64,000 nt of DNA, taken from positions 186,001 through 250,000 of the forward strand of contig NZ_BAUX01000002.1 of assembly GCF_002897035.1 (NCBI RefSeq), given 5' to 3'. The notes beneath the pieces were generated by a model. The model was not told the origin of the DNA and ran no database searches. It worked only from the letters and a program-made list of their open reading frames with translations. Position 1 is the stretch's first letter. Every line of letters begins with the position of its first letter. This document shows positions 5,990-63,822 of this stretch, one piece after another. A program made the translations under genes and the position numbers. This DNA is from Methylopila sp. Yamaguchi (GTDB taxonomy: Bacteria; Pseudomonadota; Alphaproteobacteria; Rhizobiales; Methylopilaceae).

Positions 5990-7543
5990 ATGTTGAAATT
6001 CCTATTCTCCCGCCGAGTTTCGCGGCCGGAAGAAAGCGCTCCTGCGCTTTCCACGCCGCTTCGGCGTCGATCTCCTACTCTTGTGATAAAGCAGATGCTG
6101 TCGTTGAGAAAAGCGAAGGAAGCCGCCCTCGAAGGCGACTGGGAGAGCATTGTCAAGCTGGTCGATGCGGATCCGCCATTAGCCGAAAATGTCCGGTTAC
6201 TTGAGCTTTACATCCTCGCCGGCCAAGAGATGAAGGACACGCGGGCGCTCGACGCGGCCGCGGCCATTGCGCTCGCAAACCCGTGGGCGGTCCGCCAGCG
6301 GTTTGGTCTCGTGCGCAAGTTCATGAAGGCTGGGCGGCCGGAAGACGCTTGGCGCCTCCTGGCGACCAATCCGGAAGCGTCGAAAGACGCGGGGTTTATC
6401 CGGCAGGCGAAGAGGCTCTATGGCGCCGTCAAGGACCCCGGCGTGAAGCGTGAGATCCACGGCCGGCTGACCGAGGCGACGGGCGGCGGCATGTCCGCGA
6501 AGCCGACGCTTTCGGCAATCGCGTTCGTCGGCGTCGGTCGTCCCTCCGCCCGGTTGGGCGCGACGCGCGCTGCGGCGAGCGCGGAGGTTCCCCCACGCCA
6601 CCTGGCGGGCTTTGAAAGCGAGATGCTTCTCCTGCAATCCCGCCTTCGCTCGCCGACGCCGCCGAAGGTCGTGGAGTTCAACGACGTCTTCGTTGATCGG
6701 TTCGGGCAGATCTGGCGTGAGGGAGGCGAGATCATCCAGACAAACGGGCGCCCGATTCCGGATATGGCCGCGGCCGGCGCCGCGAGCGTCGAGGCCGCAT
6801 GCCACGCCATCATGGGCACCCGCGGCATCTATCACTGGCTTGTCGACCAGACGCCGCGGTTCGGCATGTATCTCGATAAAGCCGCAAAGAATGTTCCTGT
6901 CGTCATCGCCGCGGGATCGCCGCGCTTCGAGCGCGAGACGTTGAACCTTCTTAAGCGTTCCCTCGGCGTCCGCTACGTTGAGGTCGACGAGCCGCTGTTC
7001 GTGCGCCGCCTGCTGATGCCGCGTGTGGGGTTCGCGGGCCTTATGTACCCCGACGCTACCAAAGGCGTCTTCGACGGCCTTCGATCCGAAGCGCTGAAGG
7101 CGGCGCGCGGAAAATCGTTCGGCGAGAAGATCTATATTTCCCGCCGCGACGCCAAGAGGCGGCCGATGGTCAACGAAGAGTTGGTCGAACAGGCGATGAG
7201 CGCGCGGGGCTTCAACGTGCTGCGGATGGCCGATCTGCCGATCGCGGATCAGATCGCTGCTGCGGCCGGCGCGAAGGTCATAGCGGGCCCGCACGGCGCC
7301 GGATTGGCGCACATCCTGTTCGCGGCCCGCGGATCAAAGATCGTCGAGATTCTTCCCATCATGGACGGCGCCTACGCCCTGCGCTTCAATTACGCTCGAC
7401 TGTCCACCGCGCTTGGCCACGACTATCACGCGTGGCTGGAACCGCAGCTCGCGGGCGCTGACCGTTGGACCACGGAGTTGTCGGAATTCCTCCCGTTCCT
7501 GGACGAGGCTCTCGCCGCCCAATCCGGTATGCCGCTTCTGTGA
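5990..7543 (+). CDS. Glycosyltransferase family 61 protein
   Basis: The 517-residue protein shows GT61 (DUF563) features in its C-terminal half: IYISRRDAKRRPMVNEEEL-type segment (here YISRRDAKRRPMVNEELVEQ, about 378-397), then VIAGPHGAGLAHILFA at about 430-445, the most conserved motif of the family. The N-terminal 200 residues are helical and resemble repeats of small helical pairs, but I do not recognise a named domain. GT61 enzymes act in plant and bacterial glycan synthesis, often as xylosyl-type or capsule transferases. The frame is open from 5810, but the ATG at 5990 (MLKFLFSRR) is the first reasonable start outside the hairpin region. Position between kpsE-like and the rest of the locus suggests a role in the same polysaccharide. 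Confidence 0.82.
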   Translation: MLKFLFSRRVSRPEESAPALSTPLRRRSPTLVIKQMLSLRKAKEAALEGDWESIVKLVDADPPLAENVRLLELYILAGQEMKDTRALDAAAAIALANPWAVRQRFGLVRKFMKAGRPEDAWRLLATNPEASKDAGFIRQAKRLYGAVKDPGVKREIHGRLTEATGGGMSAKPTLSAIAFVGVGRPSARLGATRAAASAEVPPRHLAGFESEMLLLQSRLRSPTPPKVVEFNDVFVDRFGQIWREGGEIIQTNGRPIPDMAAAGAASVEAACHAIMGTRGIYHWLVDQTPRFGMYLDKAAKNVPVVIAAGSPRFERETLNLLKRSLGVRYVEVDEPLFVRRLLMPRVGFAGLMYPDATKGVFDGLRSEALKAARGKSFGEKIYISRRDAKRRPMVNEELVEQAMSARGFNVLRMADLPIADQIAAAAGAKVIAGPHGAGLAHILFAARGSKIVEILPIMDGAYALRFNYARLSTALGHDYHAWLEPQLAGADRWTTELSEFLPFLDEALAAQSGMPLL

Positions 7544-7661: not shown

Positions 7662-9176
7662 ATGGAACCGACGCATCCGTCGCTTCTCGCGGTCGGACGG
7701 TTTGGCCTAGGCGTGTCGAAGGACGGCCCGCCGTCCGATCCGCGCGCCGATGTGGAGCGGCAGCTTGACGTGGCGCTGCCGTCGTATCGCGGCGAGCTGC
7801 GCGATACGCCCGGCCAGCTCCGCACCATGGTCGAGCGCCGGCAGTACCAGCGCGAGAAGATCAACGAGAAGGTCGCGGCGAACCGCGAGGCCCAACGTAA
7901 GGGCGGGGCCGACGTCGCCGCGGCGGGCACAGGCGGCGGAGAGATGGCCGGCGGCGAGATGGCGGCCGGCGGCGGCATGGCCGGCGACGGCGACATGGCG
8001 ATGGACGGGGGCATGGACCGTCGCCAGAAGCGGGACAAACGCCGGGGCGAGTTCGACATCGATCTGTCCGGCGTGGCGAAGGCGAACAACCGCGCCGAGG
8101 ACTTTCACGCCTGGCTGGAGGCGGTGCGCGACAGCCCCTGCCCCTACCAGGAGCGGCTGGCGCTCTATTGGGGCAATCATTTCACGGTCGCGGCGGTGAA
8201 GGGCAAGGTGGCGATCACTGTCGGCCCGTTCCAGCGCGAAGTGGTTCGGCCGAACGTGCTCGGCTCGTTCCACGACATGCTGGTCGCCTCCACCACGCAC
8301 CCGTCGATGATCTTCTATCTCGACAACGAGCGCTCGATCGGCCCGAAGTCGAAGGTCGGCCAGCGCGGCAAGCGCGGGGTCAACGAGAACCTGGCGCGCG
8401 AGGTGCTCGAGCTGCATTCGCTCGGCGCCGACGGCGGCTACACGCAGGCCGACGTCACGTCGTTCGCCAAGGTCCTGAGCGGCTGGACGGTCGATCTCAA
8501 CCCGGAGAGCGACGCCTGCGGCACGACGGTCTTCAAGGAGGCCTGGCACGAGCCGGGGGCCAAGACGATCCTGGGCAAGCGCTACGCCGACGATGGCGAG
8601 GGCCAGCTCCGCGCCGTCTTGAAAGATTTGGCGGAGCATCCCTCGACCGCGCGGCATGTGTCGCGCCGCTTCTCGCGCGCCTTCGTCGCCGACGACGCTT
8701 CGCCTGCGCTGCTCACGGCGCTCGAGCGCAGCTTCACGGACACGAACGGCGATCTGAAAGCGCTCGCCCGCACCTTGGTCCGCCACGACGAGGCCTGGAG
8801 CACGCCGCCGGCCAAGCTTCGGCCGCCGATCGAGTTCGTCGCCAGCGTCGCCCGCCTGCTCGACGCCACGCCGCGGCCGCCGGTCCCCTATGTCGCGCTC
8901 GTCGCCATGGGCCAGCCCTATCTCACGGCGCCCTCCCCCAAGGGCTGGTCCGACGACGACGACGCCTGGGCGACCTCGGACGGCATCAAGACCCGTCTGG
9001 ACTGGGCGCAGGATCTGTCCGCCCGCCATGCCGACCGACTGAACATGAAGCAGCTGGTCGACACGCAGCTCGCCGGCCTGCTCTCCGACGAGACCCGCAC
9101 CGCCGTGCTGCGCGGCGAGAGCCAGGAACAGGCGCTTACGCTTCTGCTGCTGAGCCCTGATTTCCAGAGGAGATAG
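7662..9176 (+). CDS. DUF1800 family protein
   Basis: The 504-residue protein is a DUF1800 member. Typical segments are the N-terminal HLLxRxxFG-like stretch (LLAVGRFGLGVS), LALYWGNHFTV, the WLxxVRxSPC-like helix, NENLAREVLELHSLG, and ADVTSFAKVLSGWT. These proteins nearly always pair with a DUF1501 protein, which follows 3 bases downstream. The biochemical function of the pair is unknown. Residues about 81-118 form a Gly/Ala/Met-rich insert with six Met in 24 residues, followed by a basic patch (RRQKRDKRRGE). No signal peptide is evident, although the partner has one. GGAGG precedes the ATG by 6 bases. It lies between capsule genes, but nothing in the sequence proves a link. Confidence 0.88.
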   Translation: MEPTHPSLLAVGRFGLGVSKDGPPSDPRADVERQLDVALPSYRGELRDTPGQLRTMVERRQYQREKINEKVAANREAQRKGGADVAAAGTGGGEMAGGEMAAGGGMAGDGDMAMDGGMDRRQKRDKRRGEFDIDLSGVAKANNRAEDFHAWLEAVRDSPCPYQERLALYWGNHFTVAAVKGKVAITVGPFQREVVRPNVLGSFHDMLVASTTHPSMIFYLDNERSIGPKSKVGQRGKRGVNENLAREVLELHSLGADGGYTQADVTSFAKVLSGWTVDLNPESDACGTTVFKEAWHEPGAKTILGKRYADDGEGQLRAVLKDLAEHPSTARHVSRRFSRAFVADDASPALLTALERSFTDTNGDLKALARTLVRHDEAWSTPPAKLRPPIEFVASVARLLDATPRPPVPYVALVAMGQPYLTAPSPKGWSDDDDAWATSDGIKTRLDWAQDLSARHADRLNMKQLVDTQLAGLLSDETRTAVLRGESQEQALTLLLLSPDFQRR

Positions 9177-9179
9177 GCG

Positions 9180-10400
9180 ATGACCGGCACAACCCGCCGC
9201 CACTTCCTGGCGGCCACCAGCGCGGCGCTCTTTGCCTCGCCCTTCATTCCCAAAGCTTGGGCCGCAGGAAGCCGCGATCCGCGGCTGCTCGTCGTCATCC
9301 TGCGGGGCGGTCTCGACGGCCTCGGCGCGGTCATGCCGATTGGCGATCCGGATTTCGCGGCGTTGCGCGCGGATTTCCAGAGCCCGAGGCTCGGCGAGGC
9401 CCACAGGCTGGACGCCATGTTCGCGCTCAACCCGAGCATGCCGGCGCTCGCGAACCTCTACGACCGCAAGGAAGCGCTGATCTTCCACGCGGTCGCCACG
9501 CCTTACCGGGCGCGCTCGCACTTCGACGGGCAGGAGGTGCTGGAGAACGGCATGCCCAAGTCGGGCACCGGCGAGGACAGCGGTTGGCTCAACCGCGCGC
9601 TCGCCGCCATGCAGCCCCAGAAGGGCGTCCGTCTCGCCCCGAAGCGCGGTCTTGCCGTCGCGGCGACCACGCCGCTCATTCTCCGCGGGGCCGCGCCCGT
9701 CGAAAGCTGGCAGCCGCAGGCCATGAACTACGCGCGCGCCGACACGCTCCAGCGGTTGGAGGCGCTCTACGACGCGCGCGATCTCAAGCTGGCCGCCGCG
9801 CTGCGCGAGGGCGCCCGGGTCGACCTCTTCCTGGGCGACGAACCCTCGATGAAGCGGCTGCAGCAGGAGGCGCCGGCCTCGTCGAAGGGCTTCGCGCTCG
9901 CCGCCAACGCCGCCGCGCGGTTGATGGCGGCGCCGGACGGCCCCAGGATCGCGGTCATGAACTTCGACGGTTGGGACACCCACACGGCCGAGGGCCCTTA
10001 CGACGGCCGGCTGGCGAAGAACCTCGTCGCGCTGGACGAAGGCGTGACCGCGCTTCGCACGGGCATGGGGCCGGTCTGGTCCGACACCAGCGTCCTGATC
10101 ATCACGGAGTTTGGCCGGACGGCGCGGGTAAACGGCACGAAAGGCACCGACCACGGCAACGGCGGCGTCGCCTTCCTCGTCGGCGGCCGGGTGAACGGCG
10201 GCCGCGTCATCGCCGACTGGCCGGGGCTCAGCGAGAAGGCGCTGTTCGAGGACCGCGACCTGGCCCCCACGACCGACATGCGGGCCGTGCTCAAGGGGCT
10301 TCTGGCCGACCAGCTGGACATCGACGAGAAGACGCTCGGCAGCACGATCTTCCCGGGCAGCGAACAGGTTCGGCCGATGCGGGGCTTGATCCGCGCCTGA
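9180..10400 (+). CDS. DUF1501 family protein with Tat signal
   Basis: The 406-residue protein is a DUF1501 member (sulfatase/alkaline-phosphatase-like fold). The N-terminus TTRRHFLAATSAALFASP is a twin-arginine signal, so the folded protein should be exported. Family segments include LLVVILRGGLDGLGAV, the YRARSHFDGQEVLENG stretch, MNFDGWDTHTAEG, LIITEFGRTARVNGTKGTDHGNGGVAFLVGG and the end of the fold near GLLADQLDIDE. The His/Asp residues in FDGWDTH and TDHGNG are candidate metal ligands. It is co-transcribed with the DUF1800 gene 3 bases upstream and ends at a bidirectional terminator. The role of DUF1800/DUF1501 pairs is not established. Confidence 0.9.
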   Translation: MTGTTRRHFLAATSAALFASPFIPKAWAAGSRDPRLLVVILRGGLDGLGAVMPIGDPDFAALRADFQSPRLGEAHRLDAMFALNPSMPALANLYDRKEALIFHAVATPYRARSHFDGQEVLENGMPKSGTGEDSGWLNRALAAMQPQKGVRLAPKRGLAVAATTPLILRGAAPVESWQPQAMNYARADTLQRLEALYDARDLKLAAALREGARVDLFLGDEPSMKRLQQEAPASSKGFALAANAAARLMAAPDGPRIAVMNFDGWDTHTAEGPYDGRLAKNLVALDEGVTALRTGMGPVWSDTSVLIITEFGRTARVNGTKGTDHGNGGVAFLVGGRVNGGRVIADWPGLSEKALFEDRDLAPTTDMRAVLKGLLADQLDIDEKTLGSTIFPGSEQVRPMRGLIRA

Positions 10401-34053: not shown

Positions 34054-34950
34054 TCAGATGGAGGCCGCAGCCGGCAGCGGGTCTTCGGCTGTGGCGCGCG
34101 GACGCACCACAGCGGGCTTGCGAGGATCGTAGGGTCGGCCCTCGATCTCGCTCGCAAAGCTCTTCGAGCGGGTCACCAGGAACTCCAGCAGGTGGTTCCG
34201 CAGCGGGTAGTAGTCGGCGTGCCTATGCATTGAGGCCGCCAGGCGGTCGCGCGGCAGCGGGTTCTCGACGATCTCGGCGATCTTCGCCTGCGGCCCGTTC
34301 GTCATGAGCACGATCCGGTCGGCCAGCAGCATGGCCTCGTCGATGTCGTGGGTGATCATGAACACGGTCTGCCCGGTCTCCCGGCAGATGCGGCGCGCCT
34401 CCTCCTGCAACGAACCGCGGGTCAGCGCGTCGAGCGCCGAGAACGGCTCGTCCATCAGCAGCATCTTGGGCTCGATCGCGAGCGCCCGGGCGATGCCCAC
34501 GCGCTGCTTCATGCCGCCGGACAGCTCCGCGGGCTTCTTGTGCTCCGAGCCCGAGAGGTGGACGAGGTCGACGTAGCGCTGGCAATGCGCCCGGACCGTC
34601 TCCCGCGACCACTCCGGGCGGCGGGACGACACCGCGAGGGCGATGTTGCCCAACACGGTCATCCAGGGCAGCAGCGAATGACCTTGGAAGATCACCGCAC
34701 GGTCGAGGCTGGGGCCGGAAATCTCGCGGCCGTCGACGATGACGGAGCCGGAGGACGGCTGGTCGAGACCGGCGAGCACATTGAGGATGGTGGTCTTGCC
34801 GCAGCCCGAATGGCCGATCAGACAGACGAACTCGCCCTTCTGGATTGGCAGCCACAGGTCCTCGAACACCGTGGTCTCGCCGCCGCCGCGCTTGGGATAG
34901 CGCCGGGCGAGCGCTTCGATGGAGATGAGGGGCTTGTCCGTCATCGCCAT
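34054..34950 (-). CDS. cynD: Cyanate/nitrate-type ABC importer, ATP-binding protein
   Basis: The 298-residue ATPase has Walker A GHSGCGKTT, signature LSGGMKQRVGIARALA, Walker B LLMDEPFSALD and switch region MITHDIDEA, as in NrtD/CynD proteins. The ATG at 34950 overlaps the permease stop (TGATG) and a second Met follows two codons later. A longer frame upstream overlaps the permease gene and is not used. The C-terminus is Arg/Pro/Ala-rich. With cynA and cynB it forms the cyanate uptake system. A nitrate/bicarbonate role is possible from the family, but the linked cyanase favours cyanate. Confidence 0.9.
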   Translation of the reverse strand: MAMTDKPLISIEALARRYPKRGGGETTVFEDLWLPIQKGEFVCLIGHSGCGKTTILNVLAGLDQPSSGSVIVDGREISGPSLDRAVIFQGHSLLPWMTVLGNIALAVSSRRPEWSRETVRAHCQRYVDLVHLSGSEHKKPAELSGGMKQRVGIARALAIEPKMLLMDEPFSALDALTRGSLQEEARRICRETGQTVFMITHDIDEAMLLADRIVLMTNGPQAKIAEIVENPLPRDRLAASMHRHADYYPLRNHLLEFLVTRSKSFASEIEGRPYDPRKPAVVRPRATAEDPLPAAASI

Positions 34951-35822
34951 CACTCCCGGTAGGCCACGAGACGCGCGGCGCGGGCGAGCGCGAGGTCGAG
35001 CGCCATGCCCACAAGCCCGATCAGCAGGATCGCCGTGATGATGTTGCCGATCGAGAGGTTGTTCCACTCGTTCCAGACGAAGTAGCCGATGCCGGTGCCG
35101 CCCACGAGCATCTCGGCCGCCACGATGACGAGCCAGGCGATGCCGATCGAGATCCGCATGCCCGTCATGATCGTGGGGGCCGCGGCCGGGAGGATCACGA
35201 GGAACGCCTTTCGAAAGGCGCCCACCTCGAGCGTGGCGGCGACGTTCAGCCACTCCTTCCGGACGCTCGCGACGCCAAAGGCGGTGTTGATCAGCATCGG
35301 CCAGAGCGAGCAGATGAAGATTACGAAGATCGCCGAGACGCCCGAATCCTTGATCGTGTAGAGCGCGAGCGGCATCCAGGCCAAAGGCGAGATCGGCTTC
35401 AGGATCTGGATGAACGGGTCCAGCGCCTTGTAGGTCAGCGGCGACATGCCGATCAGGAAGCCGAGCGGGATGGCGACGGCGGCCGCGAGCAGATAGCCGA
35501 CGAGCACCCGGCCGAGCGAATAGGCGAGTTGGATCCCGACGCCCTGGTCGTTGGCGCCGCGGACATAGAACGGGTCCTTCAGGTGCCCCCACAGCGTGGC
35601 GGCGACGTCCGCGGGCGTCGGGAACGCGCTCTTGGCCCCCTGCGCCGCAGCGCCCGAGACGAGCGCCGCGTACTCCGGGTCGACGGCGCCGCCGCCCGGG
35701 CCGGCGCCCGGCAGCGTCGCCCACTGCCAGGCCCCGACGAACGCGGCGAAAATCAGCACCGACAGCAGCCCTGCGCGCAGGGAAAGAGACGACGCCACCC
35801 TCTCAGCTCCGCTTGATCGCAA
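34950..35822 (-). CDS. cynB: Cyanate/nitrate-type ABC importer, permease
   Basis: The 290-residue protein is an NrtB/CynB-type permease. About six helices are visible, with N-terminal LLSVLIFAAFVGAWQWATL and the conserved inner blocks LKPISPLAWMPLALYTIKDS, LWPMLINTAFGVASV and the coupling-helix segment VAATLEVGAFRKAFLVILPAAAP. Its start overlaps the end of cynA, and its stop overlaps the start of cynD, so the operon is translationally coupled. It forms the membrane channel for the solute caught by CynA. Confidence 0.9.
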   Translation of the reverse strand: MRSSGAERVASSLSLRAGLLSVLIFAAFVGAWQWATLPGAGPGGGAVDPEYAALVSGAAAQGAKSAFPTPADVAATLWGHLKDPFYVRGANDQGVGIQLAYSLGRVLVGYLLAAAVAIPLGFLIGMSPLTYKALDPFIQILKPISPLAWMPLALYTIKDSGVSAIFVIFICSLWPMLINTAFGVASVRKEWLNVAATLEVGAFRKAFLVILPAAAPTIMTGMRISIGIAWLVIVAAEMLVGGTGIGYFVWNEWNNLSIGNIITAILLIGLVGMALDLALARAARLVAYRE

Positions 35823-37161
35823 AGGAGGCGACGTACTCGTCCGGCTTCGTCGGGTCGAAGGGCTTGCCCATGACGGAGAAGGTCTTGGTGGTCGTCTCTG
35901 GCGGCATGAGCCCTGCTTCCGCCATCAACCTCTTGGCGTCCGTCGCGAGGAACACGTCGTTCGCGACCTTGGCGTAGTCGACGTCGCCCTTGATCTGACC
36001 CCAGCGCTTCATCTGGGTGAGGATCCAGACCGCGAAGCTCTCCCACGGGAAGGGATCGAAGGCGATGCGGTTCGGGTCCTTCTTGACGCCGCCGAGGCCG
36101 TCCGCGTAGGTGCCGGTCAGCACTTGCTCCACCACCGTCTGCGGCTGGTTGAGATAGTTCGTGGGCGCGATCGCCGCGGCGATCTCCTTCCGGTTCTCGG
36201 CCTTTTGCGCGAAGGCGGTGGCCTCGATGATCGCCTTCAGCAGCGCCTGGTAGGTCCCGGGCATTTCGGTCACGAACTGCTTCGAGGCCGAGAACGCGCA
36301 GCAGGGGTGGCCGTCCCAGATCTCCTTGGACAGGATGTGGATGAAGCCGACGCCGTCGTAGACCGCGCGCTGGTTGACCGGGTCCGGCGCCAGGAAGCCG
36401 TCGATGTTGTCGGCGCGCAGGTTCGCGACCATCTCGGGCGGCGGCACGGCGCGGATCTGCACGTCGCGGTCGGGGTCGATCCCTGCTTCCGCCAGGTAGT
36501 AGCGCAGCAGGTAGTTGTGCATGGAGTAGTCGAAGGGCACGGCGAACTTCATGCCCTTCCAATCCTTCGGGTCGCGCTTGTCCTTGTGCTTGACCGCGAG
36601 CGTGATCGCCTGGCCGTTGACGTTCTCGACCGCCGGCATGGTCCACGGGATCGGGTTCGAGCCGACCCCCATGGAGATCGCCAGCGGCATCGGCGAGAGC
36701 ATGTGGGCGGCGTCGTATTCCTTGTTGATCGCCTTATCGCGGATCACGGCCCAGCCGGCGGTCTTCACCACTTCGACGTTCAGACCCTGCTTCTCGTAGA
36801 AGCCCATCGGCTTCGCCATGATGATCGGCGTCGCGCAGGTGATCGGAATGAAGCCGACCTTGAGGTCCGTCTTCTCAGGCTTCGCCGCTTGCGCGAAGGC
36901 TTCGGTGGCGGAGGCCAGCGGGAACAGCGCGTTCACCGCCGCGAAAGCTGTCCCGGCCCCGACCGCGCTGAGGAAAGCGCGTCGCGTGGCGTCGTGCGGA
37001 AACAGCGCGCGCATGACTGCGCCCTCGACGACGCGGGTCGTCCGCGCGTCTTCGGAGGCCTGCGCCTGCACATGCTCGGCCTCGCTGCCGTGTTGGCCGC
37101 AGGAGCAGCCGCGGCTGTTGAGGCGATAGCGGGCGTCGAACGGGTCTTTGAAGGTGGTCAT
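35803..37161 (-). CDS. cynA: Cyanate/nitrate-type ABC importer, Tat-exported binding protein
   Basis: The 452-residue receptor belongs to the CmpA/NrtA family. It has a long N-terminal leader with a Cys-X-Cys-X2-His motif (SRGCSCGQHGSEAEH), followed by a twin-arginine signal (DATRRAFLSAVGAGTAFAA, Arg-Arg at about 60-61). The mature part has LKVGFIPITCATPIIMAKPMG and MLSPMPLAISMGVGS, typical of this group. The presence of the family in a cluster with cyanase and cynF supports cyanate as ligand. The predicted sigma-54 promoter lies 38 bases upstream. The leader Cys motif is common to this family, but its role is unknown to me. Confidence 0.9.
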   Translation of the reverse strand: MTTFKDPFDARYRLNSRGCSCGQHGSEAEHVQAQASEDARTTRVVEGAVMRALFPHDATRRAFLSAVGAGTAFAAVNALFPLASATEAFAQAAKPEKTDLKVGFIPITCATPIIMAKPMGFYEKQGLNVEVVKTAGWAVIRDKAINKEYDAAHMLSPMPLAISMGVGSNPIPWTMPAVENVNGQAITLAVKHKDKRDPKDWKGMKFAVPFDYSMHNYLLRYYLAEAGIDPDRDVQIRAVPPPEMVANLRADNIDGFLAPDPVNQRAVYDGVGFIHILSKEIWDGHPCCAFSASKQFVTEMPGTYQALLKAIIEATAFAQKAENRKEIAAAIAPTNYLNQPQTVVEQVLTGTYADGLGGVKKDPNRIAFDPFPWESFAVWILTQMKRWGQIKGDVDYAKVANDVFLATDAKRLMAEAGLMPPETTTKTFSVMGKPFDPTKPDEYVASFAIKRS

Positions 37162-59383: not shown

Positions 59384-59752
59384 ATGGATCACGGCCTCGC
59401 CGCGCTGGTCGCGCCGCCGCCCTTCGACCCGGCCGATGCGCCGGAGGCCGTGACCGTCGCGCGTGGCGGGCTCGATCTGCGGCTGACCTTCCGCGACGGC
59501 GCGGAGGCGATCGTCGCCGCCGAGACGCTGCGCCTGAACTGCCGTTGCGCCTGGTGCACCCGCGCCCGGATCGAGGATCGCTTCCCCGCGCGCTTCGAAG
59601 CCGTCGCCGCGACCGACGTGAAGCTGATCGGCGGCTACGCCGCGCATCTCAGCTTCTCCGACGGTCACGACCGCGGGATCTACCCTTGGACCTACATCCG
59701 TCGGCTGGCCGCCGGCGACGCCGCGGCGCCTGCGCCCGCCCGCGCCGCCTGA
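59384..59752 (+). CDS. DUF971 protein
   Basis: The 122-residue protein is a DUF971 domain, like the N-terminal domain of gamma-butyrobetaine hydroxylase. It has RLNCRCAWCTRARIEDR (three Cys in a Cys-X-Cys-X2-Cys pattern), LIGGYAAHLSFSDGHDRGIYPWTYIRRL. Such proteins occur near Fe-S assembly or redox genes. CAGGAGC precedes the ATG at 59384. It lies 36 bases before the flavoprotein gene and is probably in its operon. The cysteines may bind metal (inference). Confidence 0.85.
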   Translation: MDHGLAALVAPPPFDPADAPEAVTVARGGLDLRLTFRDGAEAIVAAETLRLNCRCAWCTRARIEDRFPARFEAVAATDVKLIGGYAAHLSFSDGHDRGIYPWTYIRRLAAGDAAAPAPARAA

Positions 59753-59788
59753 GACCGCCACGCCCTCACCAGACAGACGAGACGCCCC

Positions 59789-61528
59789 ATGACCGACACC
59801 AAGACCGAGATCATCGAGGCCGACATTCTGGTCATCGGCGGCGGCACCGGCGGGCCCATGGCCGCCATCAAGGCCAAGGAGGCGAACCCCGGCCTCAAGG
59901 TCGTGCTGATGGAGAAGGCCAACGTGAAGCGCTCCGGCGCGATCTCCATGGGCATGGACGGCCTGAACAACGCGGTCGTCCCGGGCTACGCCACCCCCGA
60001 GCAGTACGTGAAGGAGATCACCGTCGCGAACGACGGCATCGTCAACCAGAAGGCGGTGATGGCCTACGCCACCGGCTCCTTCCCGATGATCCAGTACCTC
60101 GACAAGCTCGGGGTGAAGTTCGAGAAGGACGGCTCCGGCGAATACAACATGCGCAAGGTCCACCACATGGGGACCTATGTGCTGCCCATGCCGGAAGGCC
60201 ACAACGTCAAGAAGGTGCTGTACCGCCAGCTCCGCCGCCTGCAGGTGGCGGTGACCAACCGCTACATGGCGACCCGGCTCCTCAAGGCTCCGGACGGCCG
60301 CATCGCCGGCGCGGTCGGCGTCAACACCCGCACCTCCGAGTTCCTGGTGGTGAAGGCCAAAGCGGTGGTGCTCGCCTGCGGCGCCGCCGGCCGCCTCGGC
60401 CTCCCGGCCTCCGGCTACATGTTCGGCACCTACGAGAACGCCGCCAACTGCGGCGACGGCTACGCCATGGCCTATCACGCCGGCGCCCAGCTCGCGAACC
60501 TCGAGTGCTACCAGATCAACCCGCTGATCAAAGACTACAACGGCCCGTCCTGCGCCTACGTCACGGGTCCGTTCGGTGGCTACACCGCCAACAACAAGGG
60601 CGACCGCTTCATCGAGTGCGACTACTGGTCGGGCCAGATGATGCTGGAGTTCTGGCGCGAGCTGCAGAGCGGCAACGGCCCGGTCTACCTTAAGATGGAC
60701 CACCTCGCCGAGGAGACCATCTCCGAGATCGAGACCATCCTCCACACCAACGAGCGGCCCTCGCGCGGCCGCTTCCATGAGCGTCGCGGGAACGACTACC
60801 GCAAGCGGCCTGTGGAGATGCACATCTCCGAGATCGGCTTCTGCTCGGGCCACTCAGCCTCGGGCGTTTGGGTCGACGAAAACGCCCGCACCACCATCCC
60901 CGGCCTCTACGCCGTCGGCGACATGGCGAGCGTCCCCCACAACTACATGCTCGGCGCCTTCGTGAACGGCGGCATCGCGGGCCGCGACGCCGCCGAGTAC
61001 TGCGCGAACGTCCAGCTCGCCGACTACGACGAGGGCTATCTCGCCGCCGAGCGGGAGCGCGTGCTGGCGCCGACCCGACGCGAAGACGGGCTGACGCCGC
61101 ACGAGATGGAGTTCAAGACCCGCCGGCTCGTGAACGACTACCTTGAGCCGCCGAAGGTCACGGCGAAGATGGAGATCGCGCAGCGCCGTTTCGCGGAGAT
61201 CCGCGACGACCTGTCCGAGCTCTGCGCCCGCGACCCGCATGAGCTGCTGCGCGCGCTCGAGATGCAGACGATCCTGGACTGCGCCGATATGGCCGCCGCG
61301 GCCTCGCTCTACCGCACCGAAAGCCGCTGGGGCTTCTACCACCTCCGCGTCGACCATCCCGAGACCAACGACGAGGAGTGGTTCTGCCACACCGTCCTCT
61401 ACAAGGACGATGCGGGCCGGATGGCCCACGCCAAGCGCGAGGTCGACCCCTACGTCGTCGCCGTCGAGGCCGACGAGATGGCCGCCTACCACCAGCTCCG
61501 CGTCAAGACGCCGGCCGCGGCCGAGTAA
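59789..61528 (+). CDS. Flavoprotein of the fumarate reductase / AprA-like family
   Basis: The 579-residue protein has the FAD-binding Rossmann start (DILVIGGGTGGPMAAIKAKE, about 13-32), the KRSGAISMGMDGLNN block, a capping domain, and the second FAD segment (IPGLYAVGDMASVPHNYMLGAFVNGGIAG). The C-terminal helical domain (KAKMEIAQRRF-like, YRTESRWGFYHLRVDHPETND) follows the plan of succinate dehydrogenase/APS reductase alpha subunits. It is followed directly by a two-cluster ferredoxin, as aprA by aprB. It differs from true AprA in sequence and context, so the substrate is open. FAD binding is well supported; electron partner is the ferredoxin. Confidence 0.82.
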   Translation: MTDTKTEIIEADILVIGGGTGGPMAAIKAKEANPGLKVVLMEKANVKRSGAISMGMDGLNNAVVPGYATPEQYVKEITVANDGIVNQKAVMAYATGSFPMIQYLDKLGVKFEKDGSGEYNMRKVHHMGTYVLPMPEGHNVKKVLYRQLRRLQVAVTNRYMATRLLKAPDGRIAGAVGVNTRTSEFLVVKAKAVVLACGAAGRLGLPASGYMFGTYENAANCGDGYAMAYHAGAQLANLECYQINPLIKDYNGPSCAYVTGPFGGYTANNKGDRFIECDYWSGQMMLEFWRELQSGNGPVYLKMDHLAEETISEIETILHTNERPSRGRFHERRGNDYRKRPVEMHISEIGFCSGHSASGVWVDENARTTIPGLYAVGDMASVPHNYMLGAFVNGGIAGRDAAEYCANVQLADYDEGYLAAERERVLAPTRREDGLTPHEMEFKTRRLVNDYLEPPKVTAKMEIAQRRFAEIRDDLSELCARDPHELLRALEMQTILDCADMAAAASLYRTESRWGFYHLRVDHPETNDEEWFCHTVLYKDDAGRMAHAKREVDPYVVAVEADEMAAYHQLRVKTPAAAE

Positions 61529-61539
61529 GGACGAGACCC

Positions 61540-61773
61540 ATGCCGATCATCACCCAGGCCAAAAGCGCCGCAGTCGTCATCGACGACGCCCTGTGCATCG
61601 CCGAGAAGGGCTGCACCGTCTGCGTGGACGTGTGCCCGCTCGACATCCTCGCGATCGACGAGGGTCGGAAGAAGGCGTTCATGAAGTACGACGAGTGCTG
61701 GTACTGCATGCCCTGCGAAGCCGACTGCCCGACCGGCGCAGTCAAGGTCAACATCCCCTACCTGCTGCGCTGA
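61540..61773 (+). CDS. Two-[4Fe-4S] ferredoxin (AprB-like)
   Basis: The 77-residue protein has eight ligands: C-X5-C-X2-C-X3-CP in CIAEKGCTVCVDVCP and C-X2-C-X2-C-X3-CP in CWYCMPCEADCP. It should bind two [4Fe-4S] clusters and carry electrons for the flavoprotein, whose stop is 11 bases upstream. AAGG lies before the ATG at 61540. The length and order with the flavoprotein are like the core of AprB. The C-terminal tail is short. Confidence 0.88.
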   Translation: MPIITQAKSAAVVIDDALCIAEKGCTVCVDVCPLDILAIDEGRKKAFMKYDECWYCMPCEADCPTGAVKVNIPYLLR

Positions 61774-61780
61774 AGCGTTT

Positions 61781-61873
61781 CGTCATACCCGCCCGCAAGG
61801 CGGGTATCCACGACTTGGCCGGCGCGGCGTTCGGCGTCGCAGTCGTGGATACCCGGCTTCGGCGGGCATGACG
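61781..61873. repeat. Palindromic repeat family B, inverted pair (BIME-like)
   Basis: Left arm CGTCATACCCGCC...GGGTATCCACGACT (61781-61815) and right arm AGTCGTGGATACCCGG...GGCGGGCATGACG (61841-61873) form a long imperfect stem. The CGTCATGCCCGCC core matches the element at 39357. It fills the gap between ferredoxin and HEAT-repeat genes. Confidence 0.8.
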
Positions 61874-61909
61874 GCCGAGAGCTTCGCGGAACCACCGGAG
61901 TTCCAATCC

Positions 61910-62869
61910 ATGCCCGTGTTCGACGCCTTCGACGACGATCTCGACGACCTCCGGGAGCGCTGCTCCGATCCCGACGCCGGCGTCCGGCGGGTCGCCATGA
62001 TGGAGCTCGCCGAGCAGGTGGGCCCGGAAGCGACCGTGCTGTTGCTGAAGGGTCTCGGCGACCCCGACGCGCAGGTGCGCGCCGCCGCGGCCAAGGCGCT
62101 CGACGAACACGACGGTCCCGAGGTCGTCGAGGGCCTCGTGGGCTCGCTCGAAGACCCCGACGACGCGGTGCGCCACGCGGCGGCCGAGACGCTCGCCGAC
62201 AAGAAGGAGCCCGCCTGCGGCCCTCTGCTGATCGAGCGCGCGGAGCACTCCGACCCCTTCGTGCAGGCGGCGGCGCTTCGGGCCCTCCGCGAGCTCACCC
62301 TGCCGGACGCGCTGGCCGCGGCGCTCAAGGCGATACGCAACCCCTCCCCCGAGGTCCGCCGCGAAGGGCTCGGCGTCATCGGCTGGCTGAAGGCCGAGGA
62401 GGCCATGCCCGCGCTGATCGCGACCGCCTCCGACCCAGACCCGTCGGTGCGCCGGGCGACCATGGCCGCGTTGGTGTTCGTGCGGCCGGGCGGACCGGGC
62501 GCGACGACGCTGGTGGCGGGGCTCGCCGATCCGCACTGGCAGGTGCGCGAGGAGGCGGCGATCGTCTCCGCCAAGATCCGGCTGCCGGAAGCGACGACCG
62601 CGCTCATCGGCGCCCTCTCCGACGAGGCCTGGCAGGTCCGCGTAAAGGCGGCGAACGCGCTCGGACGGCTGCGGGCGGAGAGCGCGGTCGAGCCGCTGGC
62701 CAGGGGCCTCGACAGCGAGATCCCCAACCTGCGCAAGGAATCCGCCGCGGCCCTCGGCGAGATCGCCGCTCCCGCCGCGCTGCCCTGGCTGGAGCGCGCG
62801 ATGGACGATCCGGATCCGGATGTCCGCAAGCTGATCCGCTGGGCGATCACGCGCTGCCAGGCGGCCTGA
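61910..62869 (+). CDS. HEAT-repeat protein (31-residue repeats)
   Basis: The 319-residue protein consists of nine full HEAT-like repeats and a tenth partial one, each 31 residues with a DPDxxVRxxAxxAL-type start (for example DPDAQVRAAAAKALDE, DPDDAVRHAAAETLAD). It forms a helical solenoid that binds other proteins, here perhaps the flavoprotein/ferredoxin pair. An ATG at 61868 is open but lies in the palindromic repeat arm. I chose 61910, which has GGAG 9 bases upstream. It ends at a hairpin terminator, so it closes the flavoprotein operon. Confidence 0.88.
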   Translation: MPVFDAFDDDLDDLRERCSDPDAGVRRVAMMELAEQVGPEATVLLLKGLGDPDAQVRAAAAKALDEHDGPEVVEGLVGSLEDPDDAVRHAAAETLADKKEPACGPLLIERAEHSDPFVQAAALRALRELTLPDALAAALKAIRNPSPEVRREGLGVIGWLKAEEAMPALIATASDPDPSVRRATMAALVFVRPGGPGATTLVAGLADPHWQVREEAAIVSAKIRLPEATTALIGALSDEAWQVRVKAANALGRLRAESAVEPLARGLDSEIPNLRKESAAALGEIAAPAALPWLERAMDDPDPDVRKLIRWAITRCQAA

Positions 62870-62900
62870 TCCCACGCGAAGCGACGCTTGGAATGAGACA

Positions 62901-62930
62901 GCCGTCGGAGCGCCCCTCCGGCGGCTTTTT
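62901..62930 (+). terminator. Rho-independent terminator after the HEAT-repeat gene
   Basis: GCCGTCGGAG, loop CGCCC, CTCCGGCGGC (one G-U pair), then five T. Confidence 0.85.
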
Positions 62931-62971
62931 CGCGTCGGGACGGTCACGAAGCCGCGCCTCGCGCCGCAGCT

Positions 62972-62990
62972 GATTGGAATCAAAACAATC
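62972..62990. promoter_or_regulatory. Palindromic GATTG-N9-CAATC site upstream of the Crp/Fnr gene
   Basis: GATTGGAATCAAAACAATC lies 46 bases before the crp-like ATG. The arms TTG and CAA resemble an Fnr/Crp half-site pair, but the spacing is one base longer than the usual TTG-N8-CAA. It may be an autoregulatory operator. Confidence 0.45.
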
Positions 62991-62996
62991 CTATGC

Positions 62997-63046
62997 TCTG
63001 CTGCATCGCACCACCTGCGATGTCGGGAGATCCGCGATGCAGCAGA
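62997..63046 (+). promoter_or_regulatory. Leader with two mutually exclusive hairpins covering the start codon
   Basis: TCTGCTGCATCGC (62997-63009) and GCGATGCAGCAGA (63034-63046) are perfect 13-bp inverted copies; the right arm contains the ATG at 63037. The left arm can instead pair with GCGATG at 63017-63022, a 6-bp hairpin. The Shine-Dalgarno GGGAGA lies in the loop of the long hairpin. This geometry would permit translational control. Confidence 0.6.
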
Positions 63047-63822
63047 CAGCCCCTCTGGCCTGGCCGCCCCAGCTCCGCCCGCAGGCGGCTGCTGAGCAGG
63101 CGCGCGCGTCCGCGCTTCTGCTCGCCGACAGCGAGGCCCCGGAGCGCGGCCCCAAGCCGATGCTCCATGGGCTGACGGAGCGCGAGACCGCGCTGGTGAT
63201 GGAGCGCGCCCGTCGCAGGGTGCTCTACCGCGGCGCGACGCTGTTCACCCAGGAAACGCCGCACGACGGCATTTGGCTGATCGAGACCGGACGCATCCGC
63301 GTGTTCTACGCTGCCCCCACGGGTCGCGAGATTACTTTGGCCTACTGGTACCCCGGCAATTTCGTCGGCGGTCCCGAGGTGTTCGGCGCCGGCCAGCACT
63401 GCTGGTCCGGCATGGCCGCCAGCAACAGCTCCGTGCTGCACCTGCCCGGCCGCACGCTGAAAGAGCTCGTCACGCAGATCCCGACGCTCGCCGTCAACGT
63501 CATCGAGGGCGTCGCGTTCAAGGGCAAGTGCTACTCCGCGCTGGCGCAGATGCTCGGCACCCGCTCGATCACCGAACGTCTGGCGCACCTCCTGCTGCAC
63601 CTCGCCGACCTCTATGGCGTCGAGGAGGAGGGCGGCGGCGTCACGATCGCGGCCGCCTTCACCCACGCCGACCTCGCCCACATGGTCGGGGCCACGCGGC
63701 AGTGGATCACGATCAGCCTGAAGCGCATGAGCGCTCAAGGCGTGCTGGAGGTCCGTCGCTCGCAGATCGTGCTGCGCAAGCCCGACGTCCTGGCGCAGAT
63801 GAAGAGCGGCGGCGACGCCTGA
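63037..63822 (+). CDS. Crp/Fnr family transcription regulator
   Basis: The 261-residue protein has a disordered N-terminus of about 40 residues, a cyclic-nucleotide-type beta barrel (LFTQETPHDGIWLIETGRIRVFYAA, YWYPGNFVGGPEVFG, SSVLHLPGRTLKEL), a dimer helix, and a winged helix-turn-helix (AAFTHADLAHMVGATRQWITISLKRMSAQGVLEV). The Cys pattern of Fnr is not present, so it is not an iron-sulfur sensor of that type. The frame opens at a TTG at 62974; the ATG at 63037 has GGGAGA 6 bases upstream. It lies downstream of the flavoprotein operon, with its own terminator-separated promoter, and may regulate it. Confidence 0.88.
   Translation: MQQTAPLAWPPQLRPQAAAEQARASALLLADSEAPERGPKPMLHGLTERETALVMERARRRVLYRGATLFTQETPHDGIWLIETGRIRVFYAAPTGREITLAYWYPGNFVGGPEVFGAGQHCWSGMAASNSSVLHLPGRTLKELVTQIPTLAVNVIEGVAFKGKCYSALAQMLGTRSITERLAHLLLHLADLYGVEEEGGGVTIAAAFTHADLAHMVGATRQWITISLKRMSAQGVLEVRRSQIVLRKPDVLAQMKSGGDA

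Follow-up and report, generated by a model that had tools for sequence, protein, structure and literature searches.

A conserved flavoprotein–ferredoxin–HEAT gene set linked to an SsuA-like importer: a candidate operon for scavenging sulfur from organic sulfates

A 64,000-nucleotide stretch of Methylopila sp. Yamaguchi DNA (contig NZ_BAUX01000002.1, hereafter the window) had been predicted to encode an undescribed redox system with an APS-reductase-like flavoprotein/ferredoxin pair, and the question raised by this locus is which substrate the pair acts on. On the forward strand, genes for a DUF971/GBBH-like_N protein (59384..59752; Pfam PF06155, 62 bits against a cut-off of 22.8), an AprA/PAPS-reductase-like FAD flavoprotein (FLAV; 59789..61528; NCBIfam NF006131, PRK08275, 1071.5 bits against a whole-protein cut-off of 587), an AprB-like two-[4Fe-4S] ferredoxin (FDX; 61540..61773) and a HEAT-repeat protein (HEAT; 61910..62869; PF13646, 204.6 bits) are separated by gaps of 36, 11 and 136 bases. 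A TTG-opened ORF for a Crp/Fnr-family regulator follows on the same strand (62974..63822; PF13545 and PF00027), and its true start may lie downstream of the TTG at 62974. Genes and spacings are those of the original prediction, but the five genes are not the whole unit that it took them for. In the contig continuation the remainder of the operon lies 138 bases beyond the window end, where an SsuA-like binding protein (SBP) starts at window-equivalent position 64139; it encodes an SsuA-like ABC importer, an FdxA-type ferredoxin and a ferredoxin-NADP reductase (FNR). The lack of sulfur genes noted earlier is therefore true of the window only: the SsuA-like importer lies downstream, putative sulfite/sulfate exporters stand near some relatives, and elsewhere this importer goes with a sulfatase.

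A comparison of neighbourhoods, as had been proposed, showed that the core of the set is conserved. FDX and HEAT were present alongside FLAV in all 91 loci compared (80 scan loci plus L113–L115 and L117–L124, all selected as FLAV-bearing, and leaving out L125–L179 and the split gene of G008), which excludes a chance grouping. These three genes thus make up an invariant core. A single orthologous ABC importer of SsuA-like type is linked to it, as are FdxA and FNR in the Methylopila sp. Yamaguchi genome. The conserved set spans three proteobacterial classes, Cyanobacteria and Actinobacteria, and a DUF971 gene is present in 69 of the 91 loci at E<=1e-4. Regulators are also found nearby, with a Crp/Fnr relative within 10 kb in at least 27 and a GntR-family regulator in at least 46 of the 80 scan loci; all such counts of neighbours are minima, since 23 of these loci are shorter than 21 kb. 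Across 398 evenly drawn Pseudomonadota genomes (two draws, at limits of 1e-50 and 1e-150, with up to 4 and 3 candidates scored per genome), FLAV occurred in 21 genomes, the importer SBP in 20 and both in 20, and the two genes lay within a few kb of each other in 19 of these 20. Of 44 plasmid records with the SBP, 42 have FLAV as well, the FLAV match covering only 25% in two of the 42. No clear characterised orthologue of FLAV emerged, most APS-binding residues being lost, and among the matches listed from the open-access PMC literature (titles and abstract openings) there was no description of this gene set. The idea of an undescribed redox system is therefore borne out in the form of an apparently undescribed set.

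The flavoprotein and its partners

The best solved relative of FLAV, by both phmmer and profile, is 8A8O_A, the alpha subunit of Methanothermococcus thermolithotrophicus (Mt) PAPS reductase. The same enzyme was rank 1 in Foldseek with the FLAV model (E 2.4e-33), while A. fulgidus AprA came at rank 3–4 and D. gigas AprA only at rank 21. Flavin PAPS/APS reductases are thus the closest solved enzymes, as the original prediction of an APS-reductase-like pair would have it. The Mt enzyme (8A8O; PMC10322725) combines a flavoprotein of about 570 residues with a small two-[4Fe-4S] subunit carrying a relay Trp, a make-up that FLAV and FDX share. Likewise, FLAV and FDX resemble dissimilatory AprBA (2FJA, 1JNR, 3GYX) in having an AprA-fold FAD alpha subunit and an AprB-type two-[4Fe-4S] partner with a relay Trp. 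However, the curated AprA and AprB models score below their cut-offs (TIGR02061, 157 against 641.75 bits; NF005331, 291.7 against 557; TIGR02060, 34.2 against 135.65), and the gene context of FLAV, unlike that of Mt PAPS reductase, is an ABC importer.

Active-site residues were compared in 29 sequences picked to be diverse, which came from 23 of the 80 scan loci, the window and five plasmid loci. Passages of PMC2211403 name Asn74, Trp234, Arg265 and His398 of AprA as contacting sulfate, with Arg265 helping to hold it. Arg317 and Leu278 of AprA form an adenine clamp. Only the Asn and His of the four sulfate contacts are kept (Asn60 and His355 of FLAV, 29/29); Trp234 is replaced by Tyr and Arg265 (Mt Arg237) by Leu246, both in all 29 sequences. 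In the clamp, Arg317 corresponds to Glu287 in 29/29, a site made less sure by a gapped alignment near 317, and Leu278 to Thr, Ala or Gly at FLAV position 259. Among the channel residues, Tyr95 has become Glu and Gly274 Cys; Gln145 is also replaced, as Tyr95 is, in every sequence. Of the PAPS-specific residues of the Mt enzyme, Arg121 is His125 in 29/29 and Ser122 is His126 in 26/29, with Arg in the other three. On these losses we rejected FLAV as a member of the APS or PAPS reductases, which we kept as a model of mechanism. The FLAV structure model is of moderate quality (mean pLDDT 72.6, pTM 0.81, with pLDDT <50 in stretches such as 44–59, 125–128, 241–258 and 345–355), and for this reason no pocket argument was built on it.

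In public annotation FLAV is a succinate dehydrogenase or fumarate reductase flavoprotein, and it does share with these enzymes the FAD_binding_2 fold and a His (H345, kept in 28/29) aligned with H354 of E. coli SdhA. However, SdhA H45, H242, T254 and E255 are replaced by G, N, A and Y in 29/29, and R286 and R399 have no aligned counterpart. These seven SdhA positions (E. coli numbering) we take to be dicarboxylate-site and covalent-FAD residues. On these active-site residues we rejected the database name, and organic acids as substrate, which had been suggested for growth experiments, gain no backing, since most of the succinate/fumarate site is absent. The name itself is all that NF006131/PRK08275 and NF010374/PRK13800 carry. 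The latter describes a flavoprotein–HEAT fusion, in different halves of which FLAV (834.9 bits) and HEAT (140 bits) align, each below the whole-protein cut-off of 1196.

The matches of FDX include AprB (3GYX_B, 1.3e-8) and the PAPS reductase beta subunit (8A8O_C, 1.7e-6), with two polyferredoxins ranking above. A relay Trp follows the first Cys of its second motif (CWYC) in 91/91 loci, and at 77 residues FDX is shorter than the 150–166 residues of solved AprB chains. We propose that FDX is the beta subunit and FLAV the catalytic subunit. The regular 31-residue units described for HEAT were recovered by hydropathy autocorrelation (0.42 at lag 31, <=0.12 at other lags from 20 to 44), and its standing as a partner is upheld by its constant presence and by Tsukamurella (L119), where FLAV and HEAT are a single fused protein; we propose a scaffold or assembly role. 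The DUF971 protein has the predicted Cys-X-Cys-X2-Cys site (CRCAWC), and in three cyanobacterial loci Mrp/NBP35-type Fe-S carriers come after HEAT. DUF971 may accordingly be an Fe-S cluster helper.

The importer and its sulfatase-linked relatives

The importer SBP is nearest to SsuA/TauA, at 124.5 bits against a curated SsuA_fam cut-off of 163.5. Binding proteins can change ligand. In an alignment of 28 SBPs, 15 matched NosL at E<=0.01 in a C-terminal NosL-like domain; we make no case for a copper link through this domain, since by eye its Cys residues are not kept. YeiH-type carriers, putatively sulfate exporters, lie within 10 kb in at least 19–20 of the 80 scan loci. TauE/SafE and YeiH occur together in two cyanobacterial operons, other sulfonate SBPs near some of the operons, and LLM monooxygenases or an amidase near three plasmid loci. 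The Methylopila sp. Yamaguchi genome has its own PAPS_reduct-family genes and two genes over the SsuD cut-off, and therefore the FLAV set is probably not the host's route for sulfate or alkanesulfonates.

Three loci (L134, L136 and L137) were found to have the importer without FLAV, and each of them carries a sulfatase together with a formylglycine-generating enzyme (FGE). Their importer is orthologous to that of the FLAV loci. Two of the three have a GntR-family regulator, as many FLAV loci do. This sulfatase module is hydrolytic, FGly-dependent and yields sulfate, whereas the set in the window is a redox system that would yield sulfite. In a quick SBP tree (100 rows, each reaching 33% identity, 300 aligned residues and 200 bits, plus four outgroup rows that did not form one group), two of the sulfatase-linked SBPs nest firmly among FLAV-linked SBPs; the third, from Gordonia, has a FLAV-linked SBP as its partner at only 86, and the branches there are long. 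The sulfatases of the three loci are 70–86% identical to each other, so that the module may have spread horizontally once. Their best NCBIfam match is far below cut-off (75.5 against 481 bits), and an SGSH_C match of 42 bits keeps N-sulfates among the possible substrates. The two modules are not mutually exclusive. FLAV and the importer are both found on another plasmid record of Paraburkholderia largidicola, NZ_AP023176.1, and in Cupriavidus pinatubonensis HN-2 one plasmid carries FLAV and a second one a sulfatase of 44% identity together with FGE. Mycobacterium adipatum has a 73%-identical sulfatase with FGE and no such importer among the importer-search matches. No sulfatase was found at E<=1e-130 in the 398-genome draw, which contained no known-positive genome.

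Candidate reactions of the operon

Our best reading, to which we give a probability of about 45%, is that the importer and an AprBA-like reductase free sulfite from an organic sulfate or a closely related oxidised sulfur compound, the window holding the catalytic half of a sulfur-scavenging operon. The imported substrate is probably a sulfate ester. More tentatively, FLAV–FDX could be a sulfate-ester reductase, kin to APS/PAPS reductases and sharing its importer with the sulfatase/FGE module, that turns imported organic sulfates into sulfite and alcohol and bypasses ATP sulfurylase and APS reduction. The compound entering through the importer would be an organic sulfate (R-O-SO3-) or close relative, and electrons would pass from NADPH via FNR, FdxA and the AprB-like ferredoxin with its Trp to FAD. 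N5 of the reduced FAD would then attack sulfur, as proposed for APS and PAPS reductase, with an alcohol or phenol leaving in place of the nucleotide. The resulting FAD–sulfite adduct would give off sulfite, to be assimilated or, where YeiH/TauE-type carriers are present, exported. HEAT might keep the enzyme together or aid its assembly, and DUF971 (Mrp/NBP35 in Cyanobacteria) might supply or repair [4Fe-4S] clusters. Compared with APS, a plain sulfate ester is less activated, so low-potential electrons would be needed. This reading draws on the invariant core, the co-occurrence of FLAV and SBP, the PAPS reductase/AprA kinship, the kept Asn, His and Trp, the exporters and the sulfatase-linked importers. 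It is weakened by the invariant Leu at Arg265 and Tyr at Trp234, by there being only three sulfatase-linked loci, which a single horizontal spread may explain, by the loose placement of the Gordonia SBP, by the co-occurrence of the two modules, by the M. adipatum sulfatase, by the sub-threshold scores of SBP and sulfatase, by the lower activation of a sulfate ester, and by the putative status of YeiH as exporter.

The same flavin chemistry could be directed at a C–S bond, the operon importing C-sulfonates and desulfonating them reductively as an oxygen-independent alternative to SsuD/TauD. The kinship of the SBP with aliphatic sulfonate and taurine binding proteins, the other sulfonate SBPs and the cyanobacterial TauE/SafE–YeiH operons agree with this, but we consider it doubtful. 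In the three importer loci that lack FLAV the enzyme present is a sulfatase with FGE, and sulfatases act on S–O or S–N bonds and not on C–S; a carbanion would leave poorly upon N5 attack; and the genome already has its SsuD candidates. It is also unlikely that FLAV works on another part of the imported molecule, dehydrogenating or reducing its carbon skeleton in an incidental sulfur context. The wider flavoprotein family does have many non-sulfur members, and the loss of Arg265, the His aligned with SdhA H354 and the LLM monooxygenases or amidase would fit; yet the sulfur-site Asn and His are kept in 29/29, the nearest enzymes in fold and sequence reduce sulfur compounds, and exporters and sulfatase-linked importers point to sulfur.

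Two further possibilities have little weight. Run oxidatively, the enzyme would add sulfite to oxidised FAD and pass it to an acceptor, giving a sulfated product or detoxifying sulfite. Passages of PMC10322725 describe dissimilatory APS reductases as reversible, and some loci have linked putative exporters of sulfite or sulfate, but in the same passages the nearest characterised enzyme has no measurable reverse reaction. The linked importer and FNR suit uptake and reduction, and in three loci it is a sulfatase that the same importer supplies, which makes this direction improbable. Least credible is that the pair assimilates sulfate as a true APS or PAPS reductase fed by ferredoxin. Its best match and alpha/beta make-up with relay Trp are those of the Mt enzyme, but seven substrate positions (AprA Arg317, Leu278, Arg265, Tyr95 and Gln145, Mt 121 and 122) are replaced in 29/29, the genome contains PAPS_reduct-family genes, such an enzyme would have no use for a dedicated organic importer, and the annotation of 11 FLAV-bearing plasmid stretches, whose gene table is incomplete, shows neither ATP sulfurylase nor APS kinase.

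If organic-sulfate reduction is correct, a large family labelled fumarate reductase/succinate dehydrogenase (at least 595 stretches in one scan) is misnamed, and flavin-N5/sulfite chemistry known from APS reductase gains a new reaction. Microbes would have a new way to gain sulfur: soil, plant and water microbes would possess a second, redox-driven use of organic sulfates, without having to spend ATP on activating sulfate.

Non-coding features of the locus

The terminator predicted after HEAT was upheld in shape only. The fold of 62867–62973 contains an 11-bp hairpin, rich in G+C, that leads into a short run of U (62900..62930, forward strand); a consensus scan reported no terminator there, and the whole 107-nt stretch between HEAT and the Crp/Fnr gene folds no better than shuffles (z -0.46).

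The gap between FDX and HEAT is occupied by a dispersed REP-like palindromic repeat (approximately 61774..61873, without strand), the fold of 61771–61867 reaching -57.4 kcal/mol (z -5.15). With its own copy counted, it occurs at 11 places in the genome at <=3 mismatches, against 0 for a backward control. The HEAT ORF opens at 61868; alignment with relatives makes 61910 the likely start, the HEAT genes of the close relatives L086 and L115 beginning at the equivalent position. The repeat is absent from the equivalent place in these two relatives, and a third, L114, carries a copy there. It is an insertion and no part of the system.

The gene set and its continuation past the window edge

The five genes of the original prediction (DUF971, an AprA/PAPS-reductase-like flavoprotein, an AprB-like ferredoxin, a HEAT-repeat protein and a Crp/Fnr regulator) are present as described, and the proposed 31-residue units of the HEAT protein are borne out by a clear 31-residue period. 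The terminator placed after the HEAT gene is supported in part: the hairpin there folds into a terminator-like shape, but was not reported by a consensus scan. The gap between the ferredoxin gene (61540-61773) and the HEAT gene holds a dispersed palindromic, REP-like repeat (61774-61873) that occurs at 11 places in the genome when up to 3 mismatches are allowed. This repeat is missing at this spot in two close relatives and present in a third. Its right end contributes the ATG that opens the longest HEAT ORF; in the two relatives without the repeat, HEAT starts at the equivalent of 61910.

The operon is truncated by the window end and continues on the same strand in the overlapping stretch L113 (C2:245001-262000 of the 4.42 Mb source genome, in which the window spans C2:186001-250000). 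There, genes for a substrate-binding protein (SBP; L113 5139-6563), a permease (6560-7459), an ATPase (ending at 8367), an FdxA-like ferredoxin (8411-8749) and a ferredoxin-NADP reductase (FNR; 8779-9552) follow in the orientation of the window genes. The SBP is NMT1/SsuA-like, scoring 124.5 bits with SsuA_fam, under the cut-off of 163.5, and its nearest solved chains are sulfonate- and taurine-binding proteins. Methylobacterium radiotolerans has the identical order, DUF971-flavoprotein-ferredoxin-HEAT-Crp-SBP-permease-ATPase-FdxA-FNR, with FdxA and FNR taken from the names in its annotation. Residues 376-466 of the SBP form a C-terminal NosL-like domain on the SsuA-like binding protein, and NosL matches were found in 15 of 28 SBP relatives. 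LysR regulators beside two cyanobacterial operons (L121 7673-9670 and L127 7397-9430, both minus strand) have an additional domain at the C-terminus that shares about 35% identity with SBP, perhaps a ligand-sensing fusion. Judged from ORF translations, a second ABC importer of nitrate/sulfonate appearance lies about 22 kb from the operon (window 34054-37161, minus strand).

Conservation, fusion and co-inheritance

A scan of species genomes for the flavoprotein returned at least 595 stretches, the best 80 of which were kept. Using thresholds of 35% for identity and 60% for coverage, we found the flavoprotein in 80 of these, the ferredoxin in 80, HEAT in 79, SBP in 70, the permease in 68, DUF971 in 48, GntR in 46, FdxA and FNR in 28 each and Crp in 27; neighbours were counted in flanks of up to 10 kb, which were short at 23 of the 80 loci. 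A YeiH-type exporter was present in 19-20 of the same best 80 of at least 595 (E<=1e-8). Among 91 loci selected for the flavoprotein, made up of the 80 and 11 more, ferredoxin and HEAT were both found in all 91 and DUF971 in 69. In Tsukamurella, flavoprotein and HEAT are fused in one 893-residue protein, and a combined flavoprotein-HEAT model, PRK13800, exists in NCBIfam; fusion and model are the best evidence that HEAT works with the flavoprotein. In another genome of the window's genus (locus L094, genome G008), the flavoprotein is encoded in two overlapping frames instead of one, either a broken gene or an assembly error. Among the papers listed by searches of the open PMC literature, no title or opening abstract lines described the gene set.

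Flavoprotein and importer are mostly inherited together. In an even draw of 398 Pseudomonadota genomes, SBP was found in 20 and the flavoprotein in 21 (9 and 10 of 212 genera), and all 20 SBP genomes, the window genome and G005 among them, had the flavoprotein. The sole flavoprotein genome without SBP, G638, keeps GntR-flavoprotein-ferredoxin-HEAT-DUF971. In 19 of the 20 genomes only a few kb separate the two genes; in the remaining one (G342) they are apart. On plasmids, 53 records carry the flavoprotein, 48 of them across at least 80% of its length, with Cyanobacteria and Actinobacteria included; SBP was absent from 11 of the 53 at the limit used, and 42 of 44 SBP records also have the flavoprotein, two of these as a 25% match only. 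Of 61 relatives, 12 exceeded the flavoprotein model cut-off, 11 had SBP and 10 had both, a co-occurrence that counts for little because the carriers all belong to one genus. The flavoprotein is rare and patchy in distribution, occurring in 4 of 289 Alphaproteobacteria genomes (E<=1e-150).

The window's DUF971 bears a CxCxxC motif, which PMC7980591 reports for the DUF971 domains of HCF101, an Fe-S scaffold. Where DUF971 gave no match in three cyanobacterial loci, an Mrp/NBP35 Fe-S carrier follows HEAT, and we infer a role in Fe-S assembly for both proteins. Plasmids of Pseudanabaena and Leptolyngbya carry YeiH-type and TauE/SafE-type exporters past HEAT and Mrp/NBP35; a Nostoc plasmid has sulfonate-binding proteins and methionine-synthesis sulfhydrylase genes near the operon, and a Paraburkholderia locus has 3-mercaptopropionate dioxygenase and rhodanese nearby. 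The window's genome also encodes two members of the PAPS_reduct family, which takes in CysH and CysD, and two genes above the SsuD cut-off, so this genome probably has sulfur routes besides the gene set.

AprBA-type architecture, with active-site residues kept and lost

The solved protein nearest to the flavoprotein is the alpha subunit of Methanothermococcus thermolithotrophicus PAPS reductase (211.8 bits as single sequence, 273 bits by profile), followed by Archaeoglobus fulgidus AprA. A Foldseek search with a predicted structure of moderate quality likewise placed the PAPS reductase (8A8O) at rank 1 (E 2.4e-33, TM 0.79 on the query), followed by A. fulgidus AprA, with succinate dehydrogenases and fumarate reductases lower; in this model-based ranking, Desulfovibrio gigas AprA came no higher than rank 21. 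AprB and the beta subunit of PAPS reductase are among the matches of the ferredoxin, with two polyferredoxins outscoring both. The pair has AprBA-type architecture. In all 91 flavoprotein-selected loci, the first Cys of the ferredoxin's second motif is followed by a Trp; PMC2211403 names Trp-B48 as the electron relay of APS reductase.

AprA residues Asn74, Trp234, Arg265 and His398 are located at the sulfate and Arg317/Leu278 clamp the adenine (PMC2211403). We mapped AprA residues onto 29 family members through printed alignments. Asn74, His398 and His446 are kept in all 29 (Asn60, His355 and His384), and Trp234 and Phe448 are Tyr (Tyr215 and Tyr386) in all 29. In contrast, Arg265, Tyr95, Gly274, Phe261, Trp144 and Arg317 are lost in all 29, giving Leu246, Glu76, Cys255, Gln242, His125 and Glu287. 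The Leu278 position holds Thr, Ala or Gly, and that of Gln145 holds His in 26 and Arg in 3. The adenylate pocket is therefore mostly gone while the sulfur site is partly retained, and on the loss of most adenylate-pocket residues we rejected an APS/PAPS reductase identity. We also rejected fumarate reductase/succinate dehydrogenase. Comparison with Escherichia coli SdhA shows other residues in place of H45, H242, T254 and E255 in all 29 sequences, and nothing aligns with R286 or R399, whereas a His aligned with H354 is retained in 28 of 29. The flavoprotein is accordingly filed under neither enzyme. Cys 240, 255 and 352 are invariant in all 29, one of them at the place of AprA Gly274; from this alignment a redox or catalytic role is possible.

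A candidate substrate and mechanism

The lower activation of a sulfate ester compared with APS would account for a dedicated ferredoxin chain. In the mechanism that we propose, the importer would bring in a sulfate ester, electrons would pass from NADPH through FNR and FdxA to the AprB-like subunit and FAD, FAD N5 would attack the sulfur of the ester, and an alcohol and sulfite would be released. For the M. thermolithotrophicus enzyme, it has been proposed that FAD N5 attacks the sulfur as a nucleophile and forms an FAD-sulfite species (PMC10322725), and a sulfur adduct was seen in APS reductase crystals (PMC7662398). No annotated FNR was found in the three cyanobacterial stretches examined, whose hosts have photosynthetic ferredoxin. 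We give sulfate-ester import with reductive sulfite release, as a whole, a probability of about 45%; the strict form, with O-sulfate esters as substrate, is a more tentative proposal.

A clue to the substrate comes from three loci with the importer and without the flavoprotein: L134 (in G009, a genome of the same genus as the window, searched in its entirety for flavoprotein and SBP), L136 (a Paraburkholderia largidicola plasmid) and L137 (a Gordonia amicalis plasmid). All three encode a sulfatase with a CTPTR motif and a formylglycine-generating enzyme (FGE), checked against Pfam in L134. The module (L134 1140-3509; L136 11128-13480; L137 1-4999) comes straight after the ATPase in L134 and L136 and upstream of SBP in L137. 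Judged from its first residues, the L134 sulfatase has no obvious signal peptide and so would act on imported ester. By BLAST with the L134 sequences, sulfatase and FGE were found in one of the best 80 of at least 595 flavoprotein loci (L073; 24% and 43% identical). In the SBP tree, L134 and L136 group with 8 flavoprotein-linked SBPs in a 10-member clade with strong support, and L137 pairs with a flavoprotein-linked Tsukamurella protein (support 86, long branches). Read most simply, both modules share one type of importer and one ligand class, in which case the flavoprotein module would act on organic sulfate.

The sulfatases of the three loci are 70-86% identical to each other, so their module may have spread once, and a fourth (L176 5344-8569) is 73% identical to that of L134. 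Such close sulfatases across Alpha- and Betaproteobacteria and Actinobacteria suggest horizontal spread. The top NCBIfam match of the sulfatase reaches 75.5 bits (cut-off 481), and a 42-bit match to SGSH_C leaves N-sulfates as possible substrates. The two modules can coexist: another P. largidicola plasmid record (NZ_AP023176.1) has flavoprotein and importer, and in Cupriavidus pinatubonensis HN-2 the flavoprotein is on p2 and p1 carries a sulfatase (44% identical) together with FGE. Neither this coexistence in one species nor the question of the sulfatase substrate moves the odds given above, because each module, where both occur, has its own operon or plasmid. Mycobacterium adipatum has a 73%-identical sulfatase with FGE and no importer of this family among the plasmid SBP matches. 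In Massilia niastensis (L073 10440-13225, minus strand), the different, 24%-identical sulfatase and its FGE adjoin the flavoprotein operon.
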